A stretch of DNA of 45,753 nucleotides from Terriglobales bacterium (lineage in GTDB: Bacteria; Acidobacteriota; Terriglobia; Terriglobales; Acidobacteriaceae): contig DASRER010000025.1 of NCBI GenBank assembly GCA_035651995.1, forward strand, positions 1-45,753, given 5' to 3'. Under the pieces are notes generated by a model that was not told the origin of the DNA, searched no databases, and saw nothing but the letters and a program-made list of their open reading frames with translations. The translations under genes were made by a program, and so were the position numbers. Position 1 is the stretch's first letter. Each line of letters opens with the position of its first letter. Positions 37,536 through 40,059 of this stretch are shown here, one piece after another.

Positions 37536-38090
37536 TCAGGTCCTCGCCAATCTCTGGGACAAACCGGCGGCCGGCCACTGGTTGAGCAGCACCGGGCCGG
37601 ACTCGTCGAACGCATGCGCTCGATAACGGCTCCAGCGCCACAGCCCGGGCGTGGTGACCAGGCCGCGTTTCACTGGATTGCGGTGCATGTACTTGAGCTT
37701 TTCGATGCGCTTCTTTGCCGTGAATACATTGAAGTCGTAGAAGCGGGTTTGCCAGAACGTGGCCGGGCCCTCGGCTGCTTCCCAGAGCAACGGCTGGCTG
37801 GAGCTTCTTCTCTTGCGCCGCCGCGCACGGCGCGCCACCCGCTGCTTCAGCACTTGGAGCACGGTCGAAGGGTTTCCGACCTCAGGCTCGGAGATCAGCA
37901 GGTGAAAGTGTTCGGGCATGACTACATATCCGACTACCACGAAGCGATACTTCTTCCGGACTTCTTCCAGGATGCGGAGAAACAAGTCGCGGCGTTTTGC
38001 TGAGCCAAGATAGGTTTGCCGGCGATAGCAGCTCGAGGTGATAAAGTGCAGGTGCTGTGCGCCATAGTATCGTTTTAGCCCGGCAGGCAC
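37536..38090 (-). CDS. REP-associated tyrosine transposase (RAYT, Y1/HUH)
   Basis: RAYTs are single-copy HUH nucleases of the IS200/IS605 group that cut at REP hairpins. The 184-residue protein has the catalytic HUH motif in MPEHFHLLISEP (H-F-H) and the C-terminal YMHRNPVKRGLV, with the Tyr used for the DNA linkage. N-terminus: GLKRYYGAQHLHFITSSCYRR. The best start is GTG at 38090; the frame stays open 65 codons upstream through hairpin repeats, which is not family-like. There are no IS ends. Palindromic repeats on both sides (34494-34581, 38109-38186) are candidates for its substrate. Confidence 0.88.
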   Translation of the reverse strand: MPAGLKRYYGAQHLHFITSSCYRRQTYLGSAKRRDLFLRILEEVRKKYRFVVVGYVVMPEHFHLLISEPEVGNPSTVLQVLKQRVARRARRRKRRSSSQPLLWEAAEGPATFWQTRFYDFNVFTAKKRIEKLKYMHRNPVKRGLVTTPGLWRWSRYRAHAFDESGPVLLNQWPAAGLSQRLART

Positions 38091-38108
38091 GCATGGATTG
38101 TAGGGCCG

Positions 38109-38186
38109 CCCACCCTTTGCGGAGCAAACTGCGCTCCGCCAAGGATGGGGCACCCAAAATCGAGTTGGATGATGGGGAAGGGTGGG
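38109..38186. repeat. Nested palindromic repeat next to the RAYT gene
   Basis: CCCACCCTT (38109-38117) pairs with AAGGGTGGG (38178-38186); inside, GCGGAGC (38119-38125) pairs with GCTCCGC (38133-38139). It lies directly upstream of the RAYT start, the usual place for REP-like substrate hairpins. Confidence 0.65.
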
Positions 38187-38219
38187 CCACACGCCTGGCT
38201 GGAGTGGCCAAAGCGGCCC

Positions 38220-38251
38220 TTGACTCTGGAGCTTACTCCATAGTTTACGCT
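38220..38251 (+). promoter_or_regulatory. MerR/ZntR-type operator-promoter of the metal regulator gene
   Basis: TTGACT (38220-38225) and TACGCT (38246-38251) are 20 bp apart, the long spacing of MerR-activated promoters. Between them is the dyad ACTCTGGAG-CTTA-CTCCATAGT, 8 of 9 pairs matching. As I recall it, the E. coli zntA operator has the same half-site, ACTCTGGAG. Confidence 0.75.
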
Positions 38252-38271
38252 GTGCTCGTCGGGCGTGTGAC

Positions 38272-38730
38272 ATGGCACAGGGCATTCAGATCGGCAAAGT
38301 CGCGGAGCAGACCGGCCTCAGCATTGACACGATTCGCTTTTATCAGAAGATCGGCCTGGTCAAGCAGCCGGCCCGCAGCGAGGGCGGATTCCGGCTGTTC
38401 AGCGAGAGTGAAATAAGGGACCTGGTCTTCATTCAGAAGGCCCAAGAGCTCGGGTTTTCCCTGACCGAAATCAAGCAATTGTCTGTCCTGAATCAGCAGC
38501 ATGACCACGCCTGCTCTCAGGTGCGCGACCTGCTTACCAGCAAACTCAGAGAAATTCACGAGAAAGCGGACCAGCTCTTGCGGCTTGAGGGAGAGCTGAA
38601 AAGGGCGCTCCGAAAATGCAACCGCGACCTGCGCTCCAATAAGGGATCGCGGCACGAGGAGTGCTGTCCGCTGCTGAAGAACCTGGAACGAAAGAGCGCC
38701 AAACGACGGCAGCGTCGCCATGATCCCTAA
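38272..38730 (+). CDS. MerR-family heavy-metal regulator
   Basis: The 152-residue protein has the MerR winged-helix start (IQIGKVAEQTGLSIDTIRFYQKIGLVKQPARSEGGFRLFSESEI), the dimer helix, and Cys residues where metal-sensing members have them: C81 (HACSQV), C116 (LRKCNRD) and C131-C132 (EECCPLL). MerR uses one, one and one Cys at similar places for Hg; ZntR uses a CC pair. The operators in front of it and in front of the next gene resemble zntA, so the ion may be Hg, Zn, Pb or Cd. It is transcribed in the same direction as the genes it should control, not divergently. Confidence 0.9.
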   Translation: MAQGIQIGKVAEQTGLSIDTIRFYQKIGLVKQPARSEGGFRLFSESEIRDLVFIQKAQELGFSLTEIKQLSVLNQQHDHACSQVRDLLTSKLREIHEKADQLLRLEGELKRALRKCNRDLRSNKGSRHEECCPLLKNLERKSAKRRQRRHDP

Positions 38731-38757: not shown

Positions 38758-38789
38758 TTGTATCTGGAGCCAAGTCCAGAGTGCATCTG
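38758..38789 (+). promoter_or_regulatory. Second MerR/ZntR-type operator, before the fused transporter
   Basis: TTGTAT (38758-38763), a 20-bp spacer and CATCTG (38784-38789). The spacer begins CTGGAG and ends TCCAGAGTG; TCTGGA (n8) TCCAGA is a perfect dyad. This is nearly the zntA spacer as I remember it, but with weaker -35 and -10 boxes. Confidence 0.72.
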
Positions 38790-38813: not shown

Positions 38814-39533
38814 ATGAAGGTTGAGGTCCTCTACTTCGAAGGCTGCCCGAATCACGCACCCACAGTGGAGAGGGTGCGTGAGGCGTTGCGGTCTGAAAAC
38901 GAGACAGCCGATGTCCGAGAAATCGAGGTTCGGACGCAGGCGGAAGCCGAATCCCTGGGCTTCCTCGGTTCGCCGAGCGTTCGCATCAATGGATTGGACA
39001 TCGAACCGGAAGCTCGCAGCCTCAGGAGTTACGGGTTGAGCTGCCGTACTTATCTGGACGGACCGACAAGGAGCGGTATGCCCTCCCAAGACATTATTCG
39101 TCGCGCGCTCAAGGAGCAGAGAGCATCAGGCGGTTCTTGTTGCCAAACCGATTCAACAACGTGCCGCACGCCAGCCTCGCCTGTGGGCGGTGCTCGGGGA
39201 ACGCGCACCGCGCTATTCGCAGGAGGGATCGCCGCGACTTTGGCGTCGGTCTGTTGTCTTGGCCCTCTGCTTCTGGTCACAGTCGGCGTCAGCGGCGCTT
39301 GGATCGGAAACCTGACGCGGCTTGAGCCGTACCGCCCAATTTTCATTGTTGTCGCGGTAGCGGCCCTGTTTTTTGCGTGGCGGAGCATTTATCGGCCGGC
39401 GCAGGCGTGCGAGCCCGGCGAAGTTTGTGCTGTGCCGCAGACGCGTCGTCTTTACAAAATCCTGTTTTGGGCCAGCGTGGCGCTCACTTTGGTCGCGCTG
39501 TTGTATCCGTACTTTGCCAAATACTTTTACTGA
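38814..39533 (+). CDS. Fusion of thioredoxin-like domain and MerT mercuric transporter
   Basis: MerT carries Hg(II) from the periplasm into the cell. Here it is fused to a soluble domain. Residues 1-115 form a thioredoxin-like domain with VEVLYFEGCPNH at the N-terminus (a C-x-x-H site) and LGFLGSPSVRINGLDIEP, of the kind often found next to mer genes. A linker with CC and TCR follows, and then MerT from about residue 135: a first helix with the paired cysteines (ATLASVCCLGPLLLVTVGVSGAW), a second helix, the loop pair CEPGEVC, and a third helix (LFWASVALTLVALLYPYFAKYFY). ATG at 38814 was chosen over GTG at 38781. The stop overlaps the ribosome site of the next gene. Confidence 0.85.
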   Translation: MKVEVLYFEGCPNHAPTVERVREALRSENETADVREIEVRTQAEAESLGFLGSPSVRINGLDIEPEARSLRSYGLSCRTYLDGPTRSGMPSQDIIRRALKEQRASGGSCCQTDSTTCRTPASPVGGARGTRTALFAGGIAATLASVCCLGPLLLVTVGVSGAWIGNLTRLEPYRPIFIVVAVAALFFAWRSIYRPAQACEPGEVCAVPQTRRLYKILFWASVALTLVALLYPYFAKYFY

Positions 39534-39546
39534 AGGAGAGCTTTCT

Positions 39547-39846
39547 ATGAACAGAATGATTCGACGCTTTACCTCAATCCTATCCATCGCGGCCATGTCC
39601 ACATCGGTTTGGGCGGCCACGAAGACTGTCACTCTGAACGTGCCCGGCATGACCTGCCCAACCTGCCCCATCACCATCAAGAAAGCGCTCAACAAAGTGC
39701 AAGGCGTTTCCAAGGTCGAGGTCAATTACGAGAAGAAACAGGCGGTGGTCACCTTCGATGATGCCAAAACTGACACTAAGACCCTGGTGAAAGCGACGAC
39801 CGACGCCGGATATCCGTCAACGCCAGAAGCGACCGCCAAGAATTGA
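39547..39846 (+). CDS. merP: MerP-like periplasmic metal-binding protein
   Basis: MerP binds Hg(II) in the periplasm and hands it to MerT. The 99-residue product has a signal peptide (SILSIAAMSTSVWA) and one HMA domain with the metal site GMTCPTCPITIKKAL; note Pro-Thr between the two Cys where MerP has Ala-Ala. AAGGAG 9 bp upstream overlaps the end of the merT-like gene, so the two are one operon. No merA (mercuric reductase) follows; after a short distance a decayed recombinase is found. Without reduction, import of Hg would be harmful, so another metal or a merA elsewhere must be considered. Confidence 0.92.
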   Translation: MNRMIRRFTSILSIAAMSTSVWAATKTVTLNVPGMTCPTCPITIKKALNKVQGVSKVEVNYEKKQAVVTFDDAKTDTKTLVKATTDAGYPSTPEATAKN

Positions 39847-39859
39847 ACCGCTCCCATTG

Positions 39860-40059
39860 TCGCATCGGAAGCTCCCGGTTGGCGGTGGCGCAGCACGCGG
39901 CTGACGGTGGCACGCGAGACCTGGTGCGCCTTGGCGATCTCGCGCAGGCTTTGACCGCGAATGGCGGTCGCGGCGGATGGCCTGGCGGTCGAGCTCGAGC
40001 GGGCGCCGGCCGATGTGCCGGCCCTCCAGGCGGGAGGCATCCGCTGCTAATTCCCCCAA
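39860..40059 (-). pseudogene. Remnant of a serine recombinase (resolvase) C-terminus
   Basis: On the minus strand one frame gives RLEGRHIGRRPLELDRQAIRRDR and then, after a frameshift near 39960, the next frame gives GQSLREIAKAHQVSRATVSRVLRH, a typical C-terminal helix-turn-helix of Hin/Tn3-type resolvases. The N-terminal catalytic domain is absent. Such resolvases are common parts of mer transposons, so this is probably a scar of the element that brought in the metal operon. Confidence 0.65.

Follow-up and report, generated by a model that had tools for sequence, protein, structure and literature searches.

How Hg(II) gets from the MerT importer to its recipient with no ions set loose in the cytosol is a classical question of mercury resistance. 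In the established model MerP passes the ion to a Cys pair in the first transmembrane segment (TM1) of MerT, and from there it moves to a second pair in a cytosolic loop. A merT gene in a 45,753-nucleotide stretch of Terriglobales DNA (contig DASRER010000025.1; the whole stretch is the window below) raises the question whether a recipient can be part of the transporter itself: it was predicted to encode in one frame a small thioredoxin-like domain with a C-x-x-H site followed by a complete MerT, with the N-terminal domain on the cytosolic side, where it could accept mercury directly. There is indeed a single open reading frame of 239 residues, uninterrupted from ATG to TGA; a GTG in frame at 38781 is an alternative start that would add 11 residues. 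Its parts are the following.

38814-39533 (+), the complete DF-MerT reading frame
38814..39107 (+), DF (thioredoxin-like) domain, residues 1-98, by NF049942 (115.1 bits), pLDDT of 92-98 and thioredoxin-fold neighbours
38844-38846, 38853-38855 and 39042-39044 (+), DF site residues C11, H14 and C77 in that order, from the sequence
39108..39197 (+), linker, residues 99-128, with a Cys-Cys and one further Cys (SCCQTDSTTC), from the sequence
39198..39533 (+), MerT domain, residues 129-239 and stop codon, by PF02411 (168 bits) and NF010314 (175.3 bits)
39252-39257, 39408-39410 and 39426-39428 (+), MerT Cys codons C147/C148, C199 and C205 in that order

Domain searches recover both parts above their cut-offs. 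Residues 3-98 match the NCBIfam model for the DF family (seleno)protein (NF049942, cut-off 70) over its full length, positions 1-96 of 96, and the MerT part is matched by NCBIfam NF010314 (residues 128-239, cut-off 150) and Pfam PF02411 (residues 128/129-239, cut-off 32.9). The MerT is complete, with one Cys pair in TM1 (C147/C148) and the other in the TM2-TM3 loop (C199/C205), and the protein is the sole MerT match and the sole DF match in its genome. A PDB sequence search gave 1nho as the best match (E 0.14) and was uninformative. Two other roles were set aside: the organomercurial lyase model MerB (PF03243, Pfam) has no match to the protein at E values up to 1, and on that result the idea of DF as such a lyase was rejected; PADLOC has no match at E up to 0.001, so a function in anti-phage defence was dropped.

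Proteins that join MerT to a metal-handling domain in one chain are already represented by the MerTP fusion (NF033556) and the MerT/CopZ selenoprotein (NF045683). Their additional domain is a C-terminal HMA domain (MerP or CopZ), whereas the window protein has a thioredoxin-like DF domain at its N-terminus, with MerP encoded in a reading frame of its own. The window protein matches the two models over its MerT part only (50.7 of 180 and 83.6 of 375 bits, respectively), and falls outside MerTP, which has MerP/HMA at the C-terminus of the same chain. The DF family carries no assigned function in the entries for it in PMC12013277 and in the table of PMC13188914, and the main text of the former has no word beginning 'mercur' or 'MerT'. 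Among the literature matches listed, no title or abstract beginning mentions a DF-MerT or thioredoxin-MerT fusion. MerT with a C-terminal HMA is thus known and DF is catalogued without a function, and an N-terminal DF on MerT is a recurrent variant for which we found no description; the fusion and the location in a mer operon are additions to what is known of the DF family.

The DF domain is confidently predicted to have a thioredoxin-like fold, in agreement with the original prediction. In an AlphaFold2 model from 33 aligned sequences (pTM 0.56), block-mean pLDDT ranges over 92-98 in residues 1-100 and over 58-90 in the MerT part, and pLDDT is below 50 at linker residues 111-113 and 116-132. 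The 50 PDB entries listed as fold neighbours of DF are mostly thioredoxins, PDI domains and KaiB, aligned over residues 1 to ~105 with Z of 7.5-9.0, to be read against a best Z of 7 to 8 that is typical for models without a clear match or kinship. The best of those listed is KaiB (5jyt; Z 9.0, rmsd 4.7 over 93 residues), Thermus thermophilus thioredoxin (1v98) has Z 8.9 and rmsd 2.6 over 82 residues, and the best Foldseek E value is 5.1e-3. The likeness to thioredoxin is one of fold, because the Pfam Thioredoxin_3 model (PF13192) scores 16.4 bits, under its cut-off of 24.8; DF also differs in that it has no classical CxxC, with CPNH instead.

Residues C11, G52, P54, D62 and R78 are invariant in an alignment of 75 DF-like domains, which includes near-copies (e.g. 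L005/L006/L008 and L020/L021/L023), has part of its rows scored against NF049942, and omits L001 (a copy of the window), L047 (26 residues), L103, L105, L110, L113 and the DF of L134. The invariant G-x-P loop is presumably at the cis-Pro place of the thioredoxin fold. The C77 column is Cys in 72 rows, as in the window, TGA in two and Asn in one (L101), and position 14 is His in 56. The predicted C-x-x-H site is present as C-P-N-H at residues 11-14, but it is only half of the likely site, because C11 and C77 (Cys or Sec) are near-constant and H14 is less so; across these sequences the site is likely better described as C11 plus C77. A Cys-Cys within 30 residues after the domain is found in 13 of the 75 proteins, and the linker Cys-Cys was dropped as a defining motif on that count.

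Relatives of the window's domain have an in-frame TGA at the C77 column in six loci, two within the alignment (L041, L045) and the others outside it (L103, L105 and L110, over the NF049942 cut-off, and L113, below it), and this TGA probably encodes selenocysteine. tRNA-Sec matches of at least 70 bits are present in four of the six genomes concerned (of the remaining two assemblies, one is 0.9 Mb in size and one is 67% complete). Matches of 68-73 bits are also present in three of six genomes with a Cys-containing DF, the window genome included (G000:C6:82661-82755, 69.5 bits, gathering score 47), though its DF uses Cys, and the tRNA matches are therefore consistent with reading TGA as Sec and do not discriminate. 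In its passages on this protein the deep-Sep study (PMC12013277) lists 'hypothetical protein DF' with no conserved domain and reports no TGA-containing homologues in other Sec-utilising bacteria, so the six loci would widen the known set.

DF genes occur in several contexts. A pattern-based scan of one genome per species, which used the fusion as query and is biased towards fusions, gave 47 loci, 13 of them with a single frame for DF and MerT (L002-L009, L011, L013-L016). Scanning the window's order (298 genomes) added three further fusions (L077, L081, L084), and a scan of 396 genomes of the phylum gave three longer fusions of a CopZ type (L100, L102, L107). The order and phylum scans together hold 32 distinct places with a DF over cut-off (17 in the order, 15 more in the phylum), tallied by hand with neighbours identified by tblastn using a small set of references (for L134, by resemblance) and with some loci at contig ends. 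Seven of these have a MerT or MerT-like part in the same frame (four with DF directly followed by MerT, three of the CopZ type), ten have one next door, five have only MerR, MerP or a truncated remnant next door, and two are fused to an arsenate-reductase-like domain. In the other eight, for which the stretches covered ~2.5 to 10 kb and in some cases stop at a contig end, tblastn found no MerR, MerT, MerP, MerC or MerA nearby. The N-terminal ends of the surrounding reading frames, inspected by eye, indicate no clear mer genes, and L135 has cation-efflux-like and FeoB-like frames. Two side observations concern individual loci: L078:7740-8138 encodes a truncated DF-MerT, in which DF runs into the start of a MerT linker that ends at a stop codon, and at L084:8408-8719, beside the DF-MerT fusion and downstream of merP, there is another MerT-like stretch, a divergent one.

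Arsenate-reductase-like and MerC-like proteins, which handle soft metals or metalloids, are among the other partners of DF, and in one group of loci a separate DF gene precedes a MerB-containing fusion.

L012:1909-2661, fusion in the order ArsC-DF, by HMM
L106:1495-2217, fusion in the order DF-ArsC, by HMM
L108:1498-2214, fusion of DF and an arsenate-reductase-like domain, by resemblance
L020:4300-5709, MerB-MerT-HMA fusion directly downstream of a separate DF gene, by Pfam
L021:4300-5706, the same, by resemblance
L023:4300-5724, the same, by resemblance

The arsenate-reductase-like parts of L012 and L106 score 138.1 and 106.4 bits with TIGR02691, under its cut-off of 174.3, and are over cut-off for LMWPc. 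L019 is a DF-MerC-like fusion (MerC 27.8 bits, cut-off 27.6), and L118 resembles it with both parts below cut-off (DF 43.9 of 70, MerC 26.3 of 27.6). In the Bacteroidetes- or Ignavibacteria-type loci L036, L042 and L043, DF is near at least one of ACR3-like, ArsC-like, cation-efflux-like and small thioredoxin-like genes, as judged by eye. The TGA-bearing DF genes of L041 and L045 are beside TRAP-transporter/adenylate-kinase-like and sucCD-like genes, and inspection by eye found no metal-linked neighbours in these two loci or in L138, L139 and L142. Judged by such neighbourhoods, not all DF genes are metal-linked.

These observations bear on a reading in which DF is a thiol (or selenol) oxidoreductase, with C11-C77 disulfide cycling that keeps the Cys residues of MerT or of a partner enzyme reduced and involves no carriage of metal. 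The thioredoxin-like fold with its invariant G-x-P loop would suit such an enzyme, as would the replacement of C77 by TGA in six loci, Sec being typical of redox proteins, and the fusions to thioredoxin-type-ArsC-like domains in both orders. However, the domain has C-P-N-H rather than CxxC, with a His that is itself variable, and its partners MerT, MerC and HMA carry metals and are not redox enzymes. We consider the oxidoreductase reading rather doubtful, although it is the strongest of the alternatives.

The same single-frame arrangement was sought in other genomes and found in 16 further loci, so that 17 DF-MerT proteins are available with the window's, 13 of the additional ones from Acidobacteriota and Planctomycetota records and three from genomes of the window's family. 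All 17 match MerT (Pfam) and DF (NCBIfam) at E up to 0.001, and 12 also match HMA; these triple fusions have DF at the N-terminus and HMA, the equivalent of MerP, at the C-terminus. C147, C148 and C205 are invariant in the 17, and C199 is present in 90% or more. The longer CopZ-type proteins have four parts.

L100:355-1791 (-), DF, CopZ-type zinc-binding, MerT-like and HMA-like parts, the one of the three checked by HMM
L102:1495-2979, the same four parts
L107:1495-2979, the same four parts

In L100 the CopZ part is over cut-off (zf_CopZ 69.2 bits, cut-off 28.4), and the MerT and HMA parts are below theirs (23.0 of 32.9 and 22.9 of 24.8). Plasmid records gave 4143 matches; in the 40 listed the match is to the MerT part, and none spans 80% of the query at a single place, so the complete fusion was not seen among these plasmids.

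A tree of 42 MerT domains, 17 of them fused, was built from the window, L002-L048 and L077-L096, leaving out the CopZ-type fusions, L097 and L134 (a length filter dropped none). The fused or unfused label changes seven times on it, at least four of these forced by well-supported branches; the fusion or its fission has thus happened repeatedly in this tree, and the count does not tell which. The window, L002, L003, L081 and L084 group near the plasmid-type MerT of L096, and the triple fusions are in another group. One example of a recent rearrangement at the DF/MerT junction is the pair L013 (fused) and L020 (DF separate), whose MerT domains have branches of zero length. Between the window and L002 the third codon positions differ most (0.52 and 0.47 in the two domains, compared with 0.12-0.22 at positions 1 and 2), a pattern from which both domains appear to be under constraint.

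A near-neutral origin would account for some of this: co-transcribed mer neighbours lost the intervening stop, and DF works as it does when separate, with no gain from being joined. A separate DF close to MerT is common (the ten places above), and in the eight of these from the order scan 2 to 29 bases lie between the DF stop and the start of the downstream MerT BLAST match. The linker is poorly conserved, at 10-33% identity between the window and L002, L003, L081 and L084, and the zero-length branches of L013 and L020 also fit. Against this, fused proteins turn up repeatedly, in at least two MerT subfamilies, and persist within related lineages, with both domains still constrained, and we think a neutral fusion unlikely.

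The N-terminus had been placed in the cytosol, and the charge distribution agrees. Hydropathy indicates three hydrophobic segments (peaks near residues 148, 184 and 225), with MerT helices at 130-156, 160-193 and 210-238 in the AlphaFold2 model. Every one of the 17 fusions carries a net positive charge in the C199/C205 loop (85 K/R and 24 D/E in sum, loop limits being set by hand from the model); loop 1 is much less positive (27 K/R and 14 D/E). Three helices put the N-terminus on the side of the positively charged loop, so the DF domain is likely cytosolic by this bias; the flank ahead of TM1 has no overall positive charge (48 K/R and 61 D/E in the 17) and is of no help to that assignment. 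The C-terminal HMA of the triple fusions would then be outside, where MerP works, which is an independent fit to the topology.

The window copy is part of a mer operon, which has the following neighbours.

37536-38285 (-), REP-associated tyrosine transposase adjoining the mer genes (NF047646, 103 bits, cut-off 80)
38220..38250 (+), candidate MerR-type promoter/operator upstream of merR, found by eye: TTGACT, a 19-nt spacer with TGGAG...CTCCA, and TTACGC
38272..38730 (+), MerR-family regulator of 152 aa, upstream of DF-MerT (PF13411, PF09278 and PF00376 over cut-off)
39547..39846 (+), merP, a periplasmic Hg-binding protein of 99 aa with a GMTCPTC motif, downstream of DF-MerT (TIGR02052 128.2 bits, cut-off 92.55; PF00403 66.9 bits, cut-off 24.8)
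39726-40040 (-), short reading frame with a LacI-type helix-turn-helix, converging on merP (29.8 bits, cut-off 27)

The regulator scores 101.3 bits with the MerR model TIGR02051, under its cut-off of 150.85, and has three Cys aligned with those of MerR in the plasmid record L096. The arms of the candidate promoter dyad are 5 nt long, and a repeat search, which used arms of at least 6 nt, did not list it; MerR-family promoters are described in the abstract of PMC1526738 as having a 19 or 20 bp spacer that holds a palindrome. G+C content is 0.56-0.62 across the mer segment and 0.63-0.71 in the flanks, and because of this dip and the adjacent transposase the operon may have been acquired from elsewhere.

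The expected recipient of the imported ion would usually be other than a canonical MerA. The window genome (99.35% complete) has no MerA over cut-off, the best match being 303.3 bits of 454.45, with the model over cut-off in one of 14 control genomes. The two best matches appear by eye to be a lipoamide dehydrogenase (beside an acyltransferase gene) and a transhydrogenase-like flavoprotein. MerA is over cut-off in one of 16 fusion genomes and absent at that threshold from 15. The operons of several relatives contain a glutathione-reductase/MerA-like flavoenzyme with the active site CALRGCDPKK, including L097, in which DF is unfused.

L002:1616-2965, operon-linked flavoenzyme with CALRGCDPKK
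L077:4800-6221 (-), the same
L081:5126-6487 (-), the same
L097, the same

The flavoenzyme of the L003 operon has CELRGCDPKK and is in two frames. Those of L002, L077 and L081 are under every NCBIfam cut-off listed and are without the C-terminal Cys-Cys of the L004 MerA, and the CALRGCDPKK enzymes are possible alternative mercuric reductases. In the window genome the L081 enzyme has only matches of 28-29% identity. Methylation was rejected as a fate of the imported mercury, with the HgcB model giving at best 27.1 bits of a cut-off of 99 there and no control genome being over cut-off either; MerB has no match in the window genome, which does not establish its absence, since the control genomes gave none either.

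The apparent lack of a reductase could mean that the locus is decaying, i.e. that merR, DF-merT and merP were acquired, the reductase was lost and the protein is now without a useful role in this host. The absence of MerA over cut-off, the flavoenzyme that the L002, L077 and L081 operons have and for which the window genome offers only the distant matches above, and the signs of acquisition are all compatible with such a history. On the other hand the merR, DF-merT and merP frames are all intact and MerR keeps its three Cys, and we regard decay as very unlikely. An assembly artefact or frameshift that joined two genes, for which we found nothing in favour, can be dismissed for practical purposes, because 16 loci in other assemblies have DF and MerT joined in a single frame too and because of the third-codon-position pattern against L002.

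The reading we prefer, at about even odds, is that DF-MerT imports mercuric ions as a MerT and carries, permanently attached to it, a domain that hands them off in the cytosol. MerP would hand Hg(II) to C147/C148, from which it would move to C199/C205 in the cytosolic loop. DF would then take the ion by thiol exchange onto C11 and C77, with assistance from H14 and, in the window copy, the linker Cys-Cys, and would release it to a cytosolic thiol or a reductase. We infer a receiving role for DF because the fusion is recurrent, C11 and C77 are conserved, the charge bias is cytosolic and the other partners handle soft metals, and direct acceptance of Hg(II) by the domain is plausible on this sequence-based evidence. 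Weight against DF as acceptor comes from the scarcity of MerA in the window and fusion genomes and from DF genes in non-metal contexts, and against the hand-off model as a whole from the linker Cys-Cys, which is not general, the flank before TM1, which is not positive, and the thioredoxin fold, which equally fits a redox role. Of the original prediction, the single reading frame, thioredoxin-like fold, complete MerT and cytosolic N-terminus are supported, and acceptance of the ion by the domain is plausible; handover to the usual reductase would not fit this host, in which no MerA is over cut-off.

The closest parallel is NmerA, the N-terminal HMA domain of mercuric reductase, a cytosolic Cys domain that receives Hg(II) from MerT. 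DF is proposed to be a similar built-in domain that takes the ion from MerT and passes it onward; NmerA, however, has the HMA fold with CxxC and is on the reductase, whereas DF has a predicted thioredoxin-like fold and is on the transporter. A broader and more tentative proposal is that DF proteins act generally in the cytosol as receivers of soft metals and metalloids, with DF-MerT a self-contained import-and-receive unit independent of MerA/NmerA. The C11/C77 site, with Cys or Sec, would then pass Hg(II) either to a flavoenzyme resembling glutathione reductase or to low-molecular-weight thiols, and DF fused to arsenate reductase or MerC-like carriers would receive their products likewise.

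If the transporter does have its receiver on the same chain, the hand-off step would become measurable in one protein. The recurrent fusions, to MerT, CopZ-MerT, MerC-like proteins and arsenate reductase, offer a function for DF, an orphan family of predicted selenoproteins in the accounts of it cited above. The recurrence across bacterial lineages hints that this uncharacterised family may act as an intracellular receiver of mercury.
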